The notes under the pieces were generated by a model that ran no database searches, had not been told where the DNA came from, and saw only the letters and a program-made list of their open reading frames with translations. From NCBI RefSeq assembly GCF_000949475.1, contig NZ_JRHC01000002.1, positions 62,001-126,000 on the forward strand: DNA of 64,000 nucleotides, in the 5' to 3' direction. The position numbers and the translations under genes are program-made. Shown one piece after another: positions 12,136-62,314 of this stretch. How positions within the stretch are numbered: position 1 is the stretch's first letter; the number at the start of each line of letters is the position of its first letter. The DNA is from Draconibacterium sediminis. GTDB taxonomy: Bacteria > Bacteroidota > Bacteroidia > Bacteroidales > Prolixibacteraceae.

Positions 12136-12589
12136 TATTTGTCGTAATATAATTCTCTTAAACAACTGTTTGATGGATTCGAAAAGGAATATGGCATTAA
12201 TATTCCTGATTAAGCCCATTGGCTATTTGGCATAAGTTTTAATCCCAGTAATTCCAGCTTTGATTTACATTCTTTTCCTGAAACTACTTTAATATTTCCG
12301 ATTTTAATCAGGGCTTTTTCATATATTTTTCAATGATCACCCATAACAAAGTGGCTATCAATAAACGAGTGTTGCTTTTATTCTTTATTATGCTAACTTT
12401 AAACTCCGAATAGAAACCATAACGCATTGATTACGCGCCCGAATATAAGATTCAAGCATAAAGTACGATTCCGCACTCAAAATGGACGGATAACCCAATC
12501 TTACAATGGAGAATTGAAAATCAGCGTAGCGAAATAACCTGACTTGTTGGGTTCCAAAATCATTGTGCCTAAAATACCAAAACCGAAAA
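12136..12589. other. Long intergenic region between XRE and PHP-ATPase genes
   Basis: No gene is seen in these 450 bp. Short frames here are broken and unlike the neighbouring genes. AACCCAA (12492-12498) and TTGGGTT (12547-12553) are inverted across about 60 bp, shortly before the PHP-ATPase start. The promoter of the PHP-ATPase pair should lie here but was not clear. Confidence 0.4.
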
Positions 12590-14734
12590 ATGAAAATTGA
12601 TATTCATACACATACAAGAAAAGTAAAGTCTGGAGATGCTCCAACAAGGAATATTGATAAAGAGGAATTTGCGGATATTATAAAAGATACAGATGTCAAT
12701 ATTTTAGCTATTACAAATCATAACCACTTTGACTCAGTTCAATTTGAAGAATTTAGGGATAGCGTTATTTCTTATTGCCAAGTTTGGCCTGGAATTGAAC
12801 TTGATGTTTTAGAAAATGGAAAGAGGTCTCATTTAATTGTAGTATGTAATCCCAAGAATTACAAAAGCTTTAATCTTGTAGTAAGTCAATTACTTGATGG
12901 AAAAAGTGCTGATGCTTTCACTATATCATTAGAAGACTTGGTAGTTAAATTTGACACATTAGATTGTATTTATATAGCACATTATTTTGTTAAGAAACCA
13001 AACTTGGGTAATGAAGAAATAGAAAAGCTTTATTCTTTAGTTTCAAACCCGAAACGAATATTAAAAGAAGCAACAAATTCTATCTCTGCTGGTATTTATA
13101 TCAGTCATGGTCATAATTCGATTTTTGGATCAGACGTTAAGGATTGGAAACAATATATAGAAATTTCAAAAACCTTACCTGAATTAAGATTACCTGTAGA
13201 AAGCTTTGAGCAATTTTGTTTGCTTCTTGAAAAAGATGAAGCGACTATAAATACAATCCTAGACAAGAAACAAAAACAAAGTATAGAGTTATTCCCTTTT
13301 AAAAGTGACCCATTCGAAAAAGTTGAATTAGATATTTTTTCTGATATTAATATTCTTTTTGGAAGCAAAGGAACTGGTAAAACAGATATTTTGGAAGCTC
13401 TATCAAAGCACTTTAACACTAAAGGTCATAAAACTTCAGTCTATAAATCAAATGACAATCATTTAAATGAAGTTTTTGACATTAAGGGTAGTTCGTTTAA
13501 TTGTAAAGCATCGGATTATGGTTTTGATGAATGCGAAGATGAGATTACTTTTCTAAAAAATGTAACAGAAGGTGAAGTTACTAGCTTAAATAAGTATGAA
13601 CTTCATTTTTCGTTTCAGGAAACAAATAAAATATCTCAAAAACTAAAAATAAAAGAGATTAATAATGAGGATGAAGAAGAATCAGAAAGAGCTTTGAATG
13701 AAATAACTGAGATTCTTGATAATTTCAAATCCTTTAATGACTTTATTAGCGAAAATGATGAATTATCAGAGTTTATAAATGTTGAGTTAATTCAAGAATT
13801 GTCTGACATTTTAGAAAAAATCCTACAACAACTTAAGATTGGTACCGAAAATAATTTCCTAGATAACAAGTCTATAAAGTTGCTTAATGGTCTTGTTTCT
13901 TGCTTCAATACAGAAATTTCAAAAAAAACAAATCAACCACCCAAACCAACCAAAACTGGTTTTTTAAACTATTCACGAAATCGAATAAAAATAGAAAGAG
14001 CTGCAAAAAAAATTATTGCATTAGTAAATCAACCAATAAACCCAATTGAGGAATATGCAGGAAGCTTAGGGATAAAGGGGGAATTGAAATGCAGAACGAA
14101 TTTGATTTTTCATAATGGTTCAATTTCGAATGGCGACTATACGCCTGTGAAGAATGTAAATAAAACACCTCAAAAAAAGTTTGTCAAGGCAATAGATTCC
14201 ATTTCAAAGCATACATATTCAAATGAGTTATTTTCGAAAATTGCTGACTTAAATGAAATAGAAAATATTGAAACTATTAACACTCTAAGTGATTTGCTTT
14301 TGAAACACAAACATTTTACGCTTAATGATAATGTTTATAATCCTTCAAATGGTGAGTCTTCGATGATTTTACTTCATAAAGAACTAGTTGAAGAAAAAGA
14401 TATTTATTTGATTGATGAACCTGAAAAAAGTTTAGGTAATGACTATATAAATGATGTAATAGTTCCTTTGCTAAAGGAAAAAGCATTGCTTGGGAAAAAA
14501 GTAATTATTGCTACGCATGATGCAAATATTGCTGTAAGAACTTTACCGTATAATTCTATTTACAGATTGCATGAGTTAGGACAGCATTTTACAATGGCTG
14601 GAAACCCATTTTCAAATTCCTTAAAATGCAAATATGGTTCAAGACCAGAGCTTGACTGGAAAGAAATTAGTATGAAAACATTAGAAGGTGGAAAAGAAGC
14701 CTTTGGAGAAAGAGGAAAAATATATGGAAACTAA
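12590..14734 (+). CDS. PHP-domain phosphoesterase fused to ABC/AAA-type ATPase (TrlF-like), putative defence protein
   Basis: I chose the ATG at 12590 because the protein then starts MKIDIHTHT, the first metal-binding motif of a PHP domain. Residues 1-240 carry further PHP motifs: ITNHNHFD, WPGIELDV, HLIVVCNP and a late SHGH...GSD; the usual TDH is TNH here. The C-terminal half is an ATPase: Walker A GSKGTGKT at 258-265, a signature-like SNGESS, Walker B IYLIDEPE and H-loop ATHDAN near the end. The order resembles TrlF-type PHP-ATPases found in immune islands. It overlaps the next gene by 11 bp. A nucleotide- or nucleic-acid-cleaving effector gated by the ATPase is the likeliest role. Codon use is very AT-rich, as across the island. 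Confidence 0.75.
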   Translation: MKIDIHTHTRKVKSGDAPTRNIDKEEFADIIKDTDVNILAITNHNHFDSVQFEEFRDSVISYCQVWPGIELDVLENGKRSHLIVVCNPKNYKSFNLVVSQLLDGKSADAFTISLEDLVVKFDTLDCIYIAHYFVKKPNLGNEEIEKLYSLVSNPKRILKEATNSISAGIYISHGHNSIFGSDVKDWKQYIEISKTLPELRLPVESFEQFCLLLEKDEATINTILDKKQKQSIELFPFKSDPFEKVELDIFSDINILFGSKGTGKTDILEALSKHFNTKGHKTSVYKSNDNHLNEVFDIKGSSFNCKASDYGFDECEDEITFLKNVTEGEVTSLNKYELHFSFQETNKISQKLKIKEINNEDEEESERALNEITEILDNFKSFNDFISENDELSEFINVELIQELSDILEKILQQLKIGTENNFLDNKSIKLLNGLVSCFNTEISKKTNQPPKPTKTGFLNYSRNRIKIERAAKKIIALVNQPINPIEEYAGSLGIKGELKCRTNLIFHNGSISNGDYTPVKNVNKTPQKKFVKAIDSISKHTYSNELFSKIADLNEIENIETINTLSDLLLKHKHFTLNDNVYNPSNGESSMILLHKELVEEKDIYLIDEPEKSLGNDYINDVIVPLLKEKALLGKKVIIATHDANIAVRTLPYNSIYRLHELGQHFTMAGNPFSNSLKCKYGSRPELDWKEISMKTLEGGKEAFGERGKIYGN

Positions 14735-15224: not shown

Positions 15225-15443
15225 ATGGATTCAATAAAATTTCCAGTCGAAAATTTGACAGATGAAGAAGTTCTTAAAGAGTTTATCAAAAGATTTGAGT
15301 GTGATGGAGCAGTGCTAATCTACATGGAATCCAATACTGAATATGGTTTTGGTAGATGGAAAAACCATCAAGGTAAAAATTGGGTTCAAACACTTTTTAA
15401 ACATATCAAGAAAATAGATTCAAATAAAATAAGTATTAACTAA
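15225..15443 (+). CDS. Small hypothetical protein, first gene of the PurA/NDT operon
   Basis: A 72-residue protein (MDSIKFPVENLTDEEVLKEF...) with an acidic helical N-terminus and a basic C-terminus (TLFKHIKKIDSNKISIN). No signal peptide, membrane segment or known domain was seen. It precedes the next small gene by 13 bp on the same strand and has the same AT-rich codon use, so it is probably transcribed with the three genes that follow. Function unknown. Confidence 0.6.
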   Translation: MDSIKFPVENLTDEEVLKEFIKRFECDGAVLIYMESNTEYGFGRWKNHQGKNWVQTLFKHIKKIDSNKISIN

Positions 15444-15456
15444 AAAATTTAATGTT

Positions 15457-15780
15457 ATGGGCGGAGGAGGTTCCTATTCCAGATACAGTAGAAGGATCCC
15501 GGATAATAATCCTGAGGACAATTGTGATAAACTTCATTTTATTACTGACCTGCAAAAGATCCAACAAAATATTACCAAATACAATGTTGATGATATTTTA
15601 GAGGTAAAATTAGATGTTGTAAATAACATTTATGTTGAAGGAAATCATGGCATTTGTGGCTATATTACAGCAATGTCAGCAACGCAATTAATAAGATGTC
15701 TAAAAAAGGGGAAACAATTTATTGCTACTATCCTTAGCATTTCTAATACAAGCTGTAGAGTTGAAGTAACTCCTTTATAG
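15457..15780 (+). CDS. Small Gly-rich-N-terminus beta protein, PurA/NDT operon
   Basis: A 107-residue protein starting MGGGGSYSRYSRRIPDNN, followed by CDKLHFITDL and a beta-rich core (ILEVKLDVVNNIYVEGNHGICGYI...LIRCLKKGKQFIATILSI...CRVEVTPL). The pattern of a Gly-rich disordered start, a C-D-x-L-x-F motif and a small barrel recalls short proteins often seen near bacterial defence genes, and loosely a HIRAN-like barrel. That is recollection and inference, not a demonstrated match. It ends 8 bp before the PfkB-NDT gene, so the two are co-transcribed. Confidence 0.65.
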   Translation: MGGGGSYSRYSRRIPDNNPEDNCDKLHFITDLQKIQQNITKYNVDDILEVKLDVVNNIYVEGNHGICGYITAMSATQLIRCLKKGKQFIATILSISNTSCRVEVTPL

Positions 15781-15788
15781 AAATTAAC

Positions 15789-16982
15789 ATGCTAAATATT
15801 ATTGGAGGGAGCTATGTGGAAAATTGCATAGACCCATCATATCAGGAGCTATATGGCTCTGGGCTAAGGGCAGCAGCTGCATTATCAAAAAAAGGATTCG
15901 ATATTAATCTCTTTAGTCTAATTTCTGAGGATTTAAGAGAATTAGCAGAATTAAAAGGTCGAACGTTTGGGTATAATTGTAATTATTGGTCCACCAAAGA
16001 CACTATAGAATTTGATTACTATCACCCCTTGGCATTTCCAAGCATAATCAATTATTATGACAATTCACCAACTCAGGAAATTAAGCTAAGTGAAAATGGT
16101 GATTTTTTATACTATGGTATGCTTGAGGCCAATTTTATATTTCAAGGTAAATATGTAGTTTATGATCCTCAGAATTATAAAAGTTTTAAAACTACTGGTT
16201 CAACAGCTAAGCACTTGGCTATTATTCTAAATAAAAAAGAAGCGTTGCACTTTTCAAAATCAGAAAGTGATGATCTCTCAATTATTGGAAAAGAGTTATT
16301 AAAAACAGAAAATGCAGAAGTTATTGTTATAAAGAATGGTGTCAATGGTGCTTATGTTGTAGATAAAGAGGGGATTTCAGAGATTCCTGTATTTGCTACA
16401 ACTAACGTATGGCCGATTGGATCTGGAGACATATTTACTGCAACATTTGCGTGGCAATGGATTATTGAGAAAAAGAATCCAAGAGATGCTGCTTATTATG
16501 CTTCAAAAATGACTGCAATTTTTTGTCAAACTATGCAATTACCGATAAGTGAAATCTCGGAGGAAATATTGCCAAGAGAAATTAAAAGTAGAACAAATAA
16601 AATTTATCTGGCTGGCCCATTTTTCACAGTTGCTGAAAGGTGGATTATAAATGAAATAAGGAATATTTTAATTGATTTTGGCAACGAAGTTTTTTCTCCT
16701 CTTCATGATGTTGGGATTCTAGATACAAATAAAGTACAGTCCGAATCTATAAATATTGCTACACAGGATTTAGATGCATTAACAAAATGTGATACAATCT
16801 TTGCCATTGTGTCAGGGTTAGATGCTGGAACTTTATTTGAAATTGGATTTGCAAAAGCAGTAAAGAAAAGGGTAATCATATTGGCTCAAAACGTGAATGA
16901 AAATGATCTTACAATGTTGATTGGCTCTGAGTGTGAAATTACCAATGATTTATCAACTGCAATATATATGGCTTCATGGTAA
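15789..16982 (+). CDS. Fusion of PfkB-type sugar/nucleoside kinase and nucleoside 2-deoxyribosyltransferase
   Basis: Residues 1 to about 255 form a ribokinase/PfkB-like domain: MLNIIGGSYVEN at the start, GSGLRAAAALSKKG, and the phosphoryl-transfer motif GSGD at 211-214 with Asp214 as likely base. Residues 271-397 are a nucleoside 2-deoxyribosyltransferase: KIYLAGPFF for substrate entry and DAGTLFEIGFA carrying the catalytic-type Glu. The two activities could build a nucleoside on a chosen base and phosphorylate it. It overlaps the PurA-like gene by 7 bp, so the enzymes are coupled. The kinase N-terminus is divergent, so its substrate (nucleoside or sugar) is uncertain. Confidence 0.82.
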   Translation: MLNIIGGSYVENCIDPSYQELYGSGLRAAAALSKKGFDINLFSLISEDLRELAELKGRTFGYNCNYWSTKDTIEFDYYHPLAFPSIINYYDNSPTQEIKLSENGDFLYYGMLEANFIFQGKYVVYDPQNYKSFKTTGSTAKHLAIILNKKEALHFSKSESDDLSIIGKELLKTENAEVIVIKNGVNGAYVVDKEGISEIPVFATTNVWPIGSGDIFTATFAWQWIIEKKNPRDAAYYASKMTAIFCQTMQLPISEISEEILPREIKSRTNKIYLAGPFFTVAERWIINEIRNILIDFGNEVFSPLHDVGILDTNKVQSESINIATQDLDALTKCDTIFAIVSGLDAGTLFEIGFAKAVKKRVIILAQNVNENDLTMLIGSECEITNDLSTAIYMASW

Positions 16983-18157
16983 TCAAAAATGCTTTTATCG
17001 TTGTGGGACTTGGCTTTGGGGATGAGGGCAAAGGTTTAGCAACAGACTTTCTATGTTTACAGCATCCTAACTCAATTGTGATAAGACACAACGGGGGACA
17101 CCAAGCTGGACATTGTGTAACTACTAAAGATGGGAAAAGACATGTTTTTTCTCATTTAGGATCTGGTTCATTGAGAAAAATTCCAACATTTTGGTCTAGG
17201 TTCTGCACGGTTGAGCCTTGTTCATTAGTAGAGGAAATTAAACACTTAGAATATGCCCCAACTGTGTACATTGATTATCAGTGTCCCTTAACAACTCCAT
17301 ATGATATCTTTTTTAATCGTGCACAGGAAATAACAATGGATAACAAAAGAATTGGCAGTTGCGGGCTTGGTTATAGAACTACAATCGATAGACAAACGAA
17401 TCTTTCAGTCAAATTATCCTTCAATGATATCGTAGCTTCAGAAGATATAAGCGAGAAACTATATATAATAGAAGATTATTATAGAACAAAAACAAACTTA
17501 GAAACCAAATTTATTTTTGATACATTTTCACATATCGAAGAAACAAATAGATATCTTTCAGCAATAGAAAATATAAAAAAACTAATCTCTCAAAAGATTA
17601 TTATTCCAGTTCATGAAAAAGAAGTTATTCATTCTAAACAATGGAATACATACATCTTTGAGGGAGCACAAGGCATTCTATTAGATCAAAGATTTGGTAC
17701 AAAACCCCACATAACGAAGAGTAATACAACTTCTAAAAATGCAATTGAGATAATCTCCAGTTATAGGGATGTTGATTTTAAGAGTAGTATATTTTATGTA
17801 ACAAGAGCTTATCAGACTAGACACGGTGCAGGTCCGTTTAGAACAAAAAATCCAAGATTTAAATTAAAAAACAATGAATCGGAAACGAATCTAACAAATG
17901 AATTCCAAGGTGAATTTAGAACTAATTTTTTAGATATTGATCAGTTGAATTATGCGCTAAAATGTGATAACATCTTCTCTTTAGGCTTTGATAAGAGTCT
18001 GATAATAACGTGCCTAGATCACTTTGACTCAAGTGAAATAATTGTATATTGCAATGATAAAGAAACTAAAATCGATTATAGAGAAATATCGCAGAACCTT
18101 TCATTTGAGTTTAAAAATATTCATTATAGTTTTAGTAGCTGTGCTGAACAGTTATGA
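16976..18157 (+). CDS. Divergent adenylosuccinate synthetase-like ligase (PurA superfamily)
   Basis: A 393-residue PurA homologue, shorter than housekeeping PurA (about 430). Conserved signatures are GDEGKG (catalytic-type Asp16), NGGHQAGH (His46, equivalent to the PurA general acid), FEGAQG-LLD, ITKSNTT and TRHGAGPF. The PurA TTGRGIGP loop is changed to a SCGLGYRTT segment, the Arg-rich GRRRRTGW loop is reduced to GEFRTNF, and the C-terminus is cut short. PurA joins Asp to C6 of IMP using GTP; phage PurZ enzymes are relatives acting on dGMP. The neighbouring kinase-deoxyribosyltransferase suggests an unusual purine (deoxy)nucleotide substrate. This is not the housekeeping gene: there are no purine-pathway neighbours. 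Confidence 0.82.
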   Translation: MVIKNAFIVVGLGFGDEGKGLATDFLCLQHPNSIVIRHNGGHQAGHCVTTKDGKRHVFSHLGSGSLRKIPTFWSRFCTVEPCSLVEEIKHLEYAPTVYIDYQCPLTTPYDIFFNRAQEITMDNKRIGSCGLGYRTTIDRQTNLSVKLSFNDIVASEDISEKLYIIEDYYRTKTNLETKFIFDTFSHIEETNRYLSAIENIKKLISQKIIIPVHEKEVIHSKQWNTYIFEGAQGILLDQRFGTKPHITKSNTTSKNAIEIISSYRDVDFKSSIFYVTRAYQTRHGAGPFRTKNPRFKLKNNESETNLTNEFQGEFRTNFLDIDQLNYALKCDNIFSLGFDKSLIITCLDHFDSSEIIVYCNDKETKIDYREISQNLSFEFKNIHYSFSSCAEQL

Positions 18158-18194
18158 CTCAATAATAACAACTACCGCCAACTCAGTACATATT

Positions 18195-18340
18195 GCAGGG
18201 CGGGGTTGGGTGGTTCGCCAACTGCGTCCCGAGGCTCCGGGGCTCACATCGCAGTCCCGTGTCAGCCAGCGCGCAGACTGGAACGCTCTCCGAAATCCGC
18301 CTCTACAACATGTGCCACCGTTAGCTGGAAGGTAAAAAAA
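18195..18340. other. GC-rich intergenic block between two modules
   Basis: Within very AT-rich surroundings, this stretch of about 145 bp is strongly GC-rich (for example GGGCGGGGTTGGGTGG, CCCGAGGCTCCGGGGC) and ends ACCGTTAGCTGG. It has no credible ORF. It separates the PurA-like gene from the ATPase-nuclease pair and looks like foreign boundary DNA such as a recombination site or transposon end. Confidence 0.45.
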
Positions 18341-18430: not shown

Positions 18431-19672
18431 ATGAGCAAAATAAGAATCAAGAACTTCGGCCCGATCAAAGAAGGAATGCTGGATAATGATGGCTGGATAG
18501 ATATAAAAAAAGTCACTGTGTTTATTGGTAACCAAGGTAGTGGAAAAAGTACGGTGGCAAAAGTTTTTTCTACATTCAGTTGGTTGGAAAAGGCCATCAA
18601 CAGAAGAGATATTGAAAAGGGAAAAGTTACTTTTAATATGATTAAAAATTTTCTCCAATATCAAAAGATTCAGAGCTATTTTAAGAACAACACTTGCATT
18701 GAATATATAGGAGAAAGGTATCACATACTTTGTGATACGTCAAAACAATTTCCGGTAATAACAGAGGTTAAGGGGAATTCATATATTGTTCCCAAAATTA
18801 TGTATGTTCCTTCTGAAAGAAATTTCTTGAGTACAATCAAGGATGCATTTGACGTGAGGGGATTGCCAGATAATTTATTCACCTTTGGCGAGGAATTAAG
18901 AAAAGCGCAAAAAGAAAGTGTAAAAAAGGTCAGTTTGCCATTAAAAGGGTATTCCTACGAATATGATGAAAATGAGGATTTATCTTATATTATTGGAAAT
19001 GATTACAGAATTAGCATAATTGAAGCTGCCAGCGGATTTCAATCATTCATCCCATTATTTCTTGTTTCCAAAAAACTTGCTTCTTTGATTTCTAAAAATC
19101 AGGAAAAAATGAAAAGCGAATTAACTGTAACACAATCAGTCAGATTTGCCAATGAAATAATGAAGATAATGAACGACAACACTCTAAGTGATAAAGAAAA
19201 AAATAAACTTACCAAATCTGTTCGAGCCAGGTATTTTAATAAATGCTTTATAAATATTGTTGAAGAACCAGAGCAGAATTTATTTCCTACATCTCAACGA
19301 CAAATGTTGAATTGCCTAATGGAATTTAGAAATCAGACCAAGGGTAATAGATTGATTATGACCACTCATAGTCCATATTTGATTAACTATTTGACTTTGG
19401 CTGTAAAGGCCGAAAATGTTTATAAAACCTTGGCAGAGAAAGGTTTCAAATTAAGTGACCCTGAGGTTTCTCAAGTCAATGAAATCGTACCTATATCATC
19501 AACTGTTGTTGCTGACGATTTAGCCATATATGAGTTGAATGATAAAAAAGGAACTATTAAGACACTAGGTAGATTTGAAGGTATCCCATCTGACAAAAAT
19601 TACCTCAATGTTTCTCTTGGAGAGGTTAATCGACTTTACGACTCACTTTTAGAAATTGAAGAAGAATTATGA
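18431..19672 (+). CDS. ABC/OLD-type AAA ATPase, putative two-gene defence system
   Basis: A 413-residue soluble ATPase. It begins MSKIRIKNFGPI, the usual SMC/RecF-like opening. Walker A is GNQGSGKST at 33-41, followed by a signature-like EAASGFQS. The Walker B region is FINIVEEPEQNLFP (Glu-Glu rather than Asp-Glu) and the H-loop is MTTHSPYLI, which place it with AAA_15/OLD-type ATPases. The last four bases overlap the next start codon (ATGA), so ATPase and nuclease are made together. In such pairs the ATPase usually senses and licenses the nuclease; that role is inferred here. Confidence 0.83.
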   Translation: MSKIRIKNFGPIKEGMLDNDGWIDIKKVTVFIGNQGSGKSTVAKVFSTFSWLEKAINRRDIEKGKVTFNMIKNFLQYQKIQSYFKNNTCIEYIGERYHILCDTSKQFPVITEVKGNSYIVPKIMYVPSERNFLSTIKDAFDVRGLPDNLFTFGEELRKAQKESVKKVSLPLKGYSYEYDENEDLSYIIGNDYRISIIEAASGFQSFIPLFLVSKKLASLISKNQEKMKSELTVTQSVRFANEIMKIMNDNTLSDKEKNKLTKSVRARYFNKCFINIVEEPEQNLFPTSQRQMLNCLMEFRNQTKGNRLIMTTHSPYLINYLTLAVKAENVYKTLAEKGFKLSDPEVSQVNEIVPISSTVVADDLAIYELNDKKGTIKTLGRFEGIPSDKNYLNVSLGEVNRLYDSLLEIEEEL

Positions 19673-20172
19673 GCGTAAATTTTCAAGAGAAATCTTGCCA
19701 GATTGTGATAGGCGATAGGAAATTTGGTATTTATGACGCAGAAGATAAAACTCCTGCAAAAATTATCGACTATGATTCCGACTTGTGCAATGCTAGGGTT
19801 ACTAATGAAAGAGAAGTTGATATACTTTTTACCGCTATTGACAATTGTATAATTATTAATAGGCCAAATGGTGAAATGGACAATCGCTGCGATGCAATGT
19901 TGAGTTATGAATCAAATTTGCTTTTTATCGAGTTAAAAAATAAAAGAGACAAATGGCAATCAGAAGGTTTATCTCAGATAGAAAGCACAATAAAAAGAAT
20001 GATTGATGAAATTCCCGATTACTATTTTGATTTTAAGAAACGAAAAGCAATAGTAGCAAACCGAAAAAATAAATTTCCTTCTTTTCATGAATCAAATGCA
20101 GAACAACGCGAATATTTTAGCTCAAAGTATAAAATGAGAATCCAATTTGAAGCGGAAATCAATTTGAAATAA
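19669..20172 (+). CDS. PD-(D/E)XK-like nuclease partner of the ATPase
   Basis: A 167-residue protein with a restriction-endonuclease-like core: NRCDAML supplies an Asp, and LLFIELKNKRDKW gives the E-x-K motif after a hydrophobic strand. SQIESTIKRM adds the Gln-containing helix seen in many PD-(D/E)XK enzymes. These lie at about residues 75-120. The start codon overlaps the ATPase stop (ATGA). No methyltransferase is nearby, so it is not a classical restriction-modification system. A DNA- or RNA-cleaving effector is the best reading. Confidence 0.65.
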   Translation: MSVNFQEKSCQIVIGDRKFGIYDAEDKTPAKIIDYDSDLCNARVTNEREVDILFTAIDNCIIINRPNGEMDNRCDAMLSYESNLLFIELKNKRDKWQSEGLSQIESTIKRMIDEIPDYYFDFKKRKAIVANRKNKFPSFHESNAEQREYFSSKYKMRIQFEAEINLK

Positions 20173-61638: not shown

Positions 61639-62314
61639 AAATGAAAAAATACTAATCATTGACGATGAACTTCAGATTCGTCGTTTATTGGAAATTACAC
61701 TTTCGGCCAGCGGTTACAAGATTATTCAGTCTGTAAACGGAAAGGAAGCACTTGTGGATGCTGCAACCCATAACCCTTCGCTTATTATTCTGGATTTGGG
61801 GCTTCCTGATATTGACGGACAGGATATTCTGAAAAAACTGAGAGAATGGTTCACGAAGCCAATAATTATTTTGTCAGTCCGGGATTCGGAAGACGAAATT
61901 ATCAATGCCCTGGATAATGGAGCTAACGATTATTTAACCAAGCCTTTCCGATCCGGAGAGTTGTTGGCAAGAATCAGAGCCGCTATTCGGTCAATTGAAA
62001 ATACTTCAGATACGGCAACTTTGAGCTTCGAATCGATAACGATAGATTTGCAAAGCCATACCGTAAAGAAGAACAACGAATTGTTGAAACTTACCGCAAC
62101 CGAGTTTTCAATTCTGAGCCTATTGGCCAAAAATAGAGGAAGGGTACTTACCCATCAATACATTTTAAAAGAGATCTGGGGGCATGGTTATTCCAATCAA
62201 ACCCAATATTTAAGAGTATTTGTAGCACAACTTCGAAAGAAAATCGAGGATAACCCCTCAAAACCAACCTTGCTGATTACAGAATCAGGAATTGGCTATC
62301 GTTTTGCAGAATAA
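61631..62314 (+). CDS. KdpE-like OmpR-family response regulator
   Basis: The ATG at 61631 overlaps the kinase stop by 8 bp. The 227-residue protein has a receiver domain (ILIIDDELQIRR, phospho-Asp in LIILDLGLPDIDG, Lys in NDYLTKPFR) and a winged-helix DNA-binding domain (LLKLTATEFSILSLLAKNRGRVLTHQYILKEIWG). It probably regulates K+ uptake genes in the same locus. Confidence 0.9.
   Translation: MNENEKILIIDDELQIRRLLEITLSASGYKIIQSVNGKEALVDAATHNPSLIILDLGLPDIDGQDILKKLREWFTKPIIILSVRDSEDEIINALDNGANDYLTKPFRSGELLARIRAAIRSIENTSDTATLSFESITIDLQSHTVKKNNELLKLTATEFSILSLLAKNRGRVLTHQYILKEIWGHGYSNQTQYLRVFVAQLRKKIEDNPSKPTLLITESGIGYRFAE

Follow-up and report, generated by a model that had tools for sequence, protein, structure and literature searches.

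The locus described here raises the question of why an enzyme of the adenylosuccinate synthetase (PurA) family should be encoded together with two small proteins and a kinase-nucleoside 2-deoxyribosyltransferase (NDT) fusion in what looks like a defence island. It lies in Draconibacterium sediminis (assembly GCF_000949475.1, contig NZ_JRHC01000002.1), within a stretch of 64,000 nucleotides (positions 62,001 to 126,000 of the forward strand) that was analysed as a whole and is called the window below; coordinates are those of the window unless a locus handle precedes them. The operon consists of four plus-strand open reading frames (ORFs) for a 72-amino acid (aa) protein (15,225-15,443), a 107-aa protein (15,457-15,780), a PfkB kinase-NDT fusion (15,789-16,982) and a PurA-like protein (16,976-18,157). 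The tight packing described in the first-pass annotation was confirmed, with gaps of 13 and 8 bp followed by an overlap of 7 bp, and Pfam profile searches upheld its identification of the fusion (PfkB, E 1.7e-9; Nuc_deoxyrib_tr, E 4.9e-17) and of the adenylosuccinate synthetase-like protein (Adenylsucc_synt, E 8.9e-45). That annotation had also proposed that the operon ligates Asp to a purine. Our results indicate that the operon is real, co-conserved and rare and that it probably does not perform Asp ligation; we hypothesize that it is most likely the equivalent, built on PurA, of the nucleobase-protein conjugation systems of the QueC type.

The PurA-like protein proved to be as divergent as had been claimed, scoring far below the NCBIfam cut-offs for purA (TIGR00184; 124.6 vs 395.55 bits) and PurZ (35.2 vs 300 bits). 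It matches PHROG_1211 with an E-value of 1.3e-58, and 226 phage records match it in turn. As a separate observation, two proteins of about 545 aa (L322:3928-5565 and L323:3962-5608) give a weak PurA-like match (62 and 54 bits) and have an N-terminal part that looks P-loop-kinase-like by eye; each of these kinase-PurA fusions is encoded behind a gene of about 540 aa. In a PurA-family tree built from a 52-row subset of 157 rows, in which some branches are long, proteins of the window type grouped with those of a second type, encoded in phages and plasmids beside a von Willebrand factor A (vWA)-like protein, apart from both housekeeping PurA and PurZ (support 99). The gene thus sits in a separate clade and not within housekeeping PurA; a position inside the latter would, by the terms of the first-pass annotation, have refuted its proposal.

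PurA activates the 6-oxo group of inosine monophosphate (IMP) by phosphoryl transfer, after which the alpha-amine of Asp displaces the phosphate. D13, K16, H41, Q224 and T239 (E. coli numbering) are kept in 46 of 46 window-type rows, D13 being the catalytic Asp of the GDEGKG phosphate loop (17,018-17,035, plus strand); the variable His/Gln of the GG[HQ]QAGH motif corresponds to E. coli position 37, not 41. By contrast, T301, R303 and R305, the Asp-binding residues of E. coli PurA, are kept in none of the 46 window-type and none of the 81 vWA-type rows. Throughout the 46 window-type rows T301 is replaced by Q and V273 by H, R303 is absent, and R305 gives way to F, M, L, P or V; in the window protein, the alignment places ETNLTNEFQGEFRT (17,882-17,923, plus strand) at the site of the E. 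coli Asp loop (TTGRRRRTG). The set of Q38, H273, Q301 and an absent R303 is common to the window protein and the PHROG_1211 clade. The earlier observation that the catalytic-type Asp is kept while other loops differ was therefore right: the enzyme shares with housekeeping PurA the fold, the phosphate loop and the catalytic Asp and His, but differs from it in the Asp-site residues, in its separate clade and in its length of 393 aa. On sequence grounds, it keeps the residues for phosphoryl transfer to the purine 6-oxo group and not those of the PurA aspartate site. Because the latter are absent, the name adenylosuccinate synthetase is doubtful for the 127 window- and vWA-type rows, even if the acceptor proposed below is wrong.

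What such an enzyme might do is suggested by the company that the fusion keeps. A genome scan with a fusion alignment (the best 80 of 309 relatives) and a scan of viral contigs (nine further near full-length fusions) gave, with the window, 90 loci, whose neighbouring genes were clustered and counted by profile within 6 kb. A QueC-like ligase stands beside the fusion in 79 of these loci and a PurA-like protein in 10; no locus has both, and in the last one (L016) the contig ends right behind the fusion. All 10 complete PurA-type loci encode the small protein, the fusion and the PurA-like protein in this order, and the 72-aa gene is present in eight of them, as well as in L016, and in none of the 79 QueC-type loci. 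The genes are thus co-conserved, a point on which the first-pass annotation had made its proposal depend. None of the 10 has a QueC-like, nitroreductase-like, OGG-like or methyltransferase gene, or a match to the vWA-like profile, within 6 kb of the fusion, and a dGTPase gene occurs in one. In the 79 QueC-type loci the small protein was found in 78, an OGG-like protein in 70, a nitroreductase-like protein in 62, a D12-type methyltransferase in 35 and a dGTPase in 10; these operons (L025-L103) vary in which of the last four they carry as extras. The PurA-type fusions, L016 included, form one clade (support 99, 45-row tree), and their sources are all Bacteroidota records except L016, a metagenome-assembled genome that carries the label Bacilli and is nearly identical to a Bacteroidales one. 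Of the 120 best fusion matches in the protein database, 58 pair with one of the 120 best PurA-like matches when paired by the size of the longest source contig.

Comparison of these loci indicates that the PurA-like gene replaces the QueC-like ligase in an otherwise homologous core of small Gly-tailed protein and PfkB-NDT fusion, an exchange that fits two enzymes doing equivalent steps. The QueC-type operon is the QueC 'Cluster 4' of PMC13329287, where, with its PF00294-PF05014 neighbours, it is described as purine salvage; neither the small protein nor a PurA-like gene appears in sections 7 and 8 of that paper. The window operon has the same fusion, a homologous Gly-tailed small protein and the same gene order, but carries the PurA-like gene instead of the QueC-like one and has gained the 72-aa gene.

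The 107-aa protein, which we propose as the acceptor, begins MGGGGSYS… and consists of a Gly-rich N-terminal tail (MGGGGSYSRYSRR; 15,457-15,495, plus strand), the proposed acceptor end, and a core with two Cys, C23 and C81, that are invariant in 51 aligned rows. Neighbour clustering and profile counts showed it to be homologous to the small protein of the QueC-type operons, which begins M[SGAT]G in at least 67 of 78 cases under a strict start rule; this is a lower bound, because the rule misplaces several QueC-type starts at an internal Met (several of the 11 exceptions). Among 1101 neighbouring proteins, three begin M[SGTA]G[SGT] and two MSG[SGT]. Nine of 10 protein-database homologues of the 107-aa protein, all close relatives, begin MG. 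Its Pfam and NCBIfam matches are weak (E 0.02 or worse), PADLOC and PHROGs gave none, and a profile search of the PDB returned two weak matches for the small protein (E about 0.04). Of 19 aligned PurA-type small proteins, 18 have a Tyr at residue 10-16 with Ser, Thr or Val directly after it, which suggests recognition of the tail. The 72-aa protein, found only with PurA-type operons, has 25 residues invariant across eight aligned homologues and no match in Pfam, NCBIfam, PADLOC or PHROGs.

Proteins with an N-terminal Gly motif are known beside QueC-family enzymes. Cap9, the QueC-family enzyme of type IV CBASS (cyclic oligonucleotide-based anti-phage signalling system), is reported to attach a 7-deazaguanine base to its partner at the latter's N-terminal glycine (PMC11996544; PMC13279940). 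Conjugation of this kind by the QueC family is also a subject of PMC13329287. The CBASS partner has an MGGS motif and QatB an essential MGTS motif, while for QatC nucleobase-protein conjugation is described as proposed only (PMC13279940). Like these systems, the window operon encodes, in a defence locus, a ligase of nucleobase biosynthesis next to a protein with a flexible Gly motif at its N-terminus, a motif that only some PurA-type operons share; it differs in that the ligase belongs to the PurA family, not QueC, and that here we only infer conjugation. No CD-NTase, QatA or QatD match was found among the four operon proteins. In a literature search covering few subscription papers and preprints, nothing connected a PurA-like protein and NDT/PfkB with either defence or an N-terminal glycine.

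A second set of relatives pairs the PurA-like enzyme with a different partner. In the first four examined, from Rhizobium, Vibrio and Mycobacterium phages and an A. vitis plasmid, a phrog_2971 protein beginning MGGG, MGGA, MGSG or MGDG is encoded just upstream of the PurA-like gene, with a 60-aa gene between the two in the Vibrio phage. We call this protein vWA-like from its LDxTGSM stretch (by eye); Pfam matched no vWA domain, a profile search of the PDB gave no match, and neither four vWA-like proteins nor four A. vitis plasmid genes (the vWA-like gene of that plasmid being in both sets) matched PADLOC. Among the best 80 of 548 viral-contig relatives, near copies included (the L133-L136 and L137-L294 set), a vWA-like gene of this type lies on the same strand at most 1.5 kb upstream of the PurA-like gene in 76 loci; among the remaining loci, two are truncated by a contig end, one has the gene at a distance of 2.2 kb and one is without it. 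Residue 2 of the vWA-like protein is Gly in 110 of 111 cases (117 distinct proteins scoring 100 or more against the profile, less six truncated rows), and residues 3-5 vary. As the start we used whichever start codon was closest to profile position 1, with which 110 of the 111 coincide exactly; all four seeds of the profile begin MG. The background of Gly2 is about 3% (27 of 766 and 36 of 1101 neighbours), with 2 of 90 among neighbours of housekeeping purA. The pair also occurs in two Bacteroidota genomes (L320:3405-6227 and L321:439-6854), with MGGTRYD starts. This PHROG_1211/PHROG_2971 pair shares with the window operon the clade and residue changes of the enzyme and an MG-starting partner, and differs from it in that the partner is vWA-like and no PfkB-NDT fusion was seen.

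We propose that the operon is a defence-island system in which a purine is attached to a partner protein as a tag, a reading that we hold tentatively, as having close to an even chance of being correct. The PurA-like enzyme would use a nucleoside triphosphate to form a 6-phosphoryl purine, and the N-terminal amine of the 107-aa protein, not the alpha-amine of Asp, would displace the phosphate to give a purine-6-N-protein conjugate. The N-terminal amine would be the simplest nucleophile because the activation machinery is kept, the Asp contacts are lost and a flexible Gly-tailed protein adjoins. The NDT (by base exchange) and PfkB (by 5'-phosphorylation) domains would supply the enzyme with its (deoxy)nucleoside or nucleotide, or else modify the base once it is linked to the protein. 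Most cautiously of all, we suggest that the tagged protein, perhaps together with the 72-aa one, might sense or counter phage infection. By analogy, such a change from PurA to a protein ligase would be of the same kind as Cap9's change of QueC chemistry. A protein substrate, which the first-pass annotation had not considered, is favoured over a free modified nucleotide because of the Gly-tailed partners and the QueC/PurA-like swap.

Several observations weigh against this proposal. Three PurZ-like rows (S-2L PurZ and two phage proteins annotated PurA-like that we grouped with it) are also gapped at positions 300-303, in a loop where the PurZ alignment is unsure, and the PurZ-type enzyme structure 6tnh has Asp bound. 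As PurZ is an Asp user, the absence of R303 alone proves nothing, and our case against the Asp ligation proposed earlier is to that extent not final. In one alternative, (deoxy)adenylosuccinate would remain the product of the PurA-like enzyme, and remodelled residues (H273, Q301 and others) would bind the Asp. We consider this improbable, given the loss of T301, R303 and R305 from every window- and vWA-type row, the presence of R305 in all three PurZ-like rows and a second, housekeeping purA elsewhere in the host genome. Phage PurZ has the PurA fold in common with the window enzyme, but the PurZ-like rows form a separate clade and have Ser at the D13 position (3/3), where the window type has Asp (46/46). 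Asp ligation and a PurZ-like modified DNA base were accordingly set aside as the main reading, because the residues of the PurA Asp site are missing and the enzyme does not show the replacement of Asp by Ser that marks PurZ. The protein-tagging proposal also has to accommodate a partly changed IMP 5'-phosphate site: N38 is replaced by Q in 46 of 46 rows and T129 by C in 40 of 46, and R143, at which the alignment is unsure, is not aligned with an Arg. IMP may therefore not be the substrate.

A further difficulty is that Gly2 is not general among the PurA-type small proteins. In the 10 PurA-type loci, two begin MG (the window and L015), five MKG or MKDGG and two MSKR, and L017 is without an ATG there; the L016 protein, outside the ten, begins MIGG. 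The alpha-amine is free in every one, whereas Gly2 is not common to all. In L017 (9600-9750), the small-protein frame gives IIGGGGGYTTNYTRD before the first ATG, and a rare ATT codon may serve as the start. The variable second residue would suit a small-molecule pathway, in which NDT and PfkB provide an unusual (deoxy)nucleotide, to which the PurA-like enzyme adds a small amine other than Asp to give a signal or toxic analogue, and the 107-aa protein is a receptor or scaffold. All three activities do belong to nucleotide metabolism, the changed pocket residues are invariant, so that a new small nucleophile is possible, and 11 of the 90 fusion loci have a dGTPase gene no more than 6 kb away. 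Such a pathway, however, leaves unexplained both Gly2 in 110 of 111 of the relatives' partners and the exchange with a QueC-like ligase, and we regard it as unlikely, though deserving of weight. As for protein tagging itself, the QueC partners of the QueC form keep SGGxDS in 70 of 73 cases and have the Y-x-D-C motif in 0 of 73, so that their base may not be 7-carboxy-7-deazaguanine (CDG). The L321 pair sits with phosphoribosyltransferase, NDT-like, ADP-ribosylglycohydrolase, NADAR, Macro and KptA genes, in what looks like a setting for NAD/ADP-ribose repair, and the vWA form may accordingly work in nucleotide or ADP-ribose repair, not only in defence. Finally, PADLOC gave no match for any of the four proteins of the operon.

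Both domains of the fusion keep their presumed catalytic residues. D214 (codon at 16,428-16,430, plus strand), within GSGD, the C-terminal PfkB catalytic-base motif (Gly-x-Gly-Asp), is conserved in 89 of 89 aligned fusions (PurA-type 11/11, QueC-type 78/78; L062 left out). E351 (codon at 16,839-16,841, plus strand), assigned as the NDT catalytic Glu by our own mapping, is conserved in 11 of 11 PurA-type and 77 of 78 QueC-type fusions; the title of a published reference speaks of a Glu nucleophile in NDT. The NDT domain is closer to the NDT 7o62 (E 3.7e-13) than to DNPH1 (E about 5e-4), which makes a DNPH1-type deoxynucleoside monophosphate hydrolase less likely. These intact residues, and the proposal that NDT domains fused to abortive-infection modules attack DNA (PMC3710099), would also suit an NDT domain that is itself the effector, cleaving or exchanging bases of the nucleotide pool or of DNA in infection under the regulation of the other genes. 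This is very unlikely in our view: it leaves the constant ligase neighbour and the Gly tails unexplained, and a kinase domain is fused to the NDT in every full-length row aligned.

The location between two likely defence modules, noted in the first-pass annotation, was borne out. The operon is flanked by a PDC-M49A-like ATPase gene (12,593-14,734, also taken as 12,563-14,734, plus strand; PADLOC E 1e-27) and a PDC-M29A/B pair (18,431-20,172, plus strand; PADLOC E 1.5e-164 and 1.5e-50), both given here for context only; the N-terminus of the ATPase matches the TrlF family (NCBIfam E 4.6e-14, 52 bits against a cut-off of 350). In a defence scan of 76 of the 80 listed proteins flanking PurA-type loci, run with no control set, the matches listed (25 of 66 families) included single members of type IIG restriction-modification, dGTPase, MkoA/MkoC, ThsA, AriA, DrmD, Hhe, PDC-M04 and PDC-S37 and two of mad3 (E < 1e-10). 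The full-length fusion was found only in its own genome among 61 genomes, where other matches were partial, and again only there among 395 genomes; together with a GC content of 28-38% at 11-21 kb of the window, which includes the operon, against 44-46% at 8-11 kb, this suggests that the operon is rare in the group and was probably acquired horizontally. Plasmids carry the fusion in 37 records, all under 60% identity. Two plasmid loci examined closely are of the QueC type; in one, an annotated anti-phage dGTPase follows, and in the other, nitroreductase and methylase genes and, at a greater distance, a TIR gene. A phage origin of the whole operon was rejected, as the phage collection holds no fusion and the nine near full-length viral-contig fusions are all QueC-type. 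The Bacteroidota-type promoter pattern occurs five times in the window (4.95 expected) and not upstream of the operon, and a search for repeats around the operon gave three short imperfect pairs and nothing more. The stretch between the operon and the PDC-M29 genes (18,170-18,340) is GC-rich by eye inside the AT-rich island.

In a wider frame, a second independent family, of the PurA fold and not QueC, may have been turned into a ligase that joins purine C6 to a protein N-terminal amine. It would do so in two systems, one vWA-paired in phages and plasmids and the other PfkB-NDT-paired in Bacteroidota defence islands, the latter having arisen by exchange of a QueC-like for a PurA-like enzyme on the same core; we consider this possible, though somewhat short of probable. 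If true, nucleobase-protein conjugation in immunity would have been invented more than once and would not be peculiar to QueC. PHROG_1211, which bears the annotation adenylosuccinate synthetase in large phages and plasmids, would gain a testable chemistry, the joining of purine C6 to an N-terminal glycine, and the QueC 'Cluster 4' operons described as purine salvage would be recast as likely protein-modifying systems.

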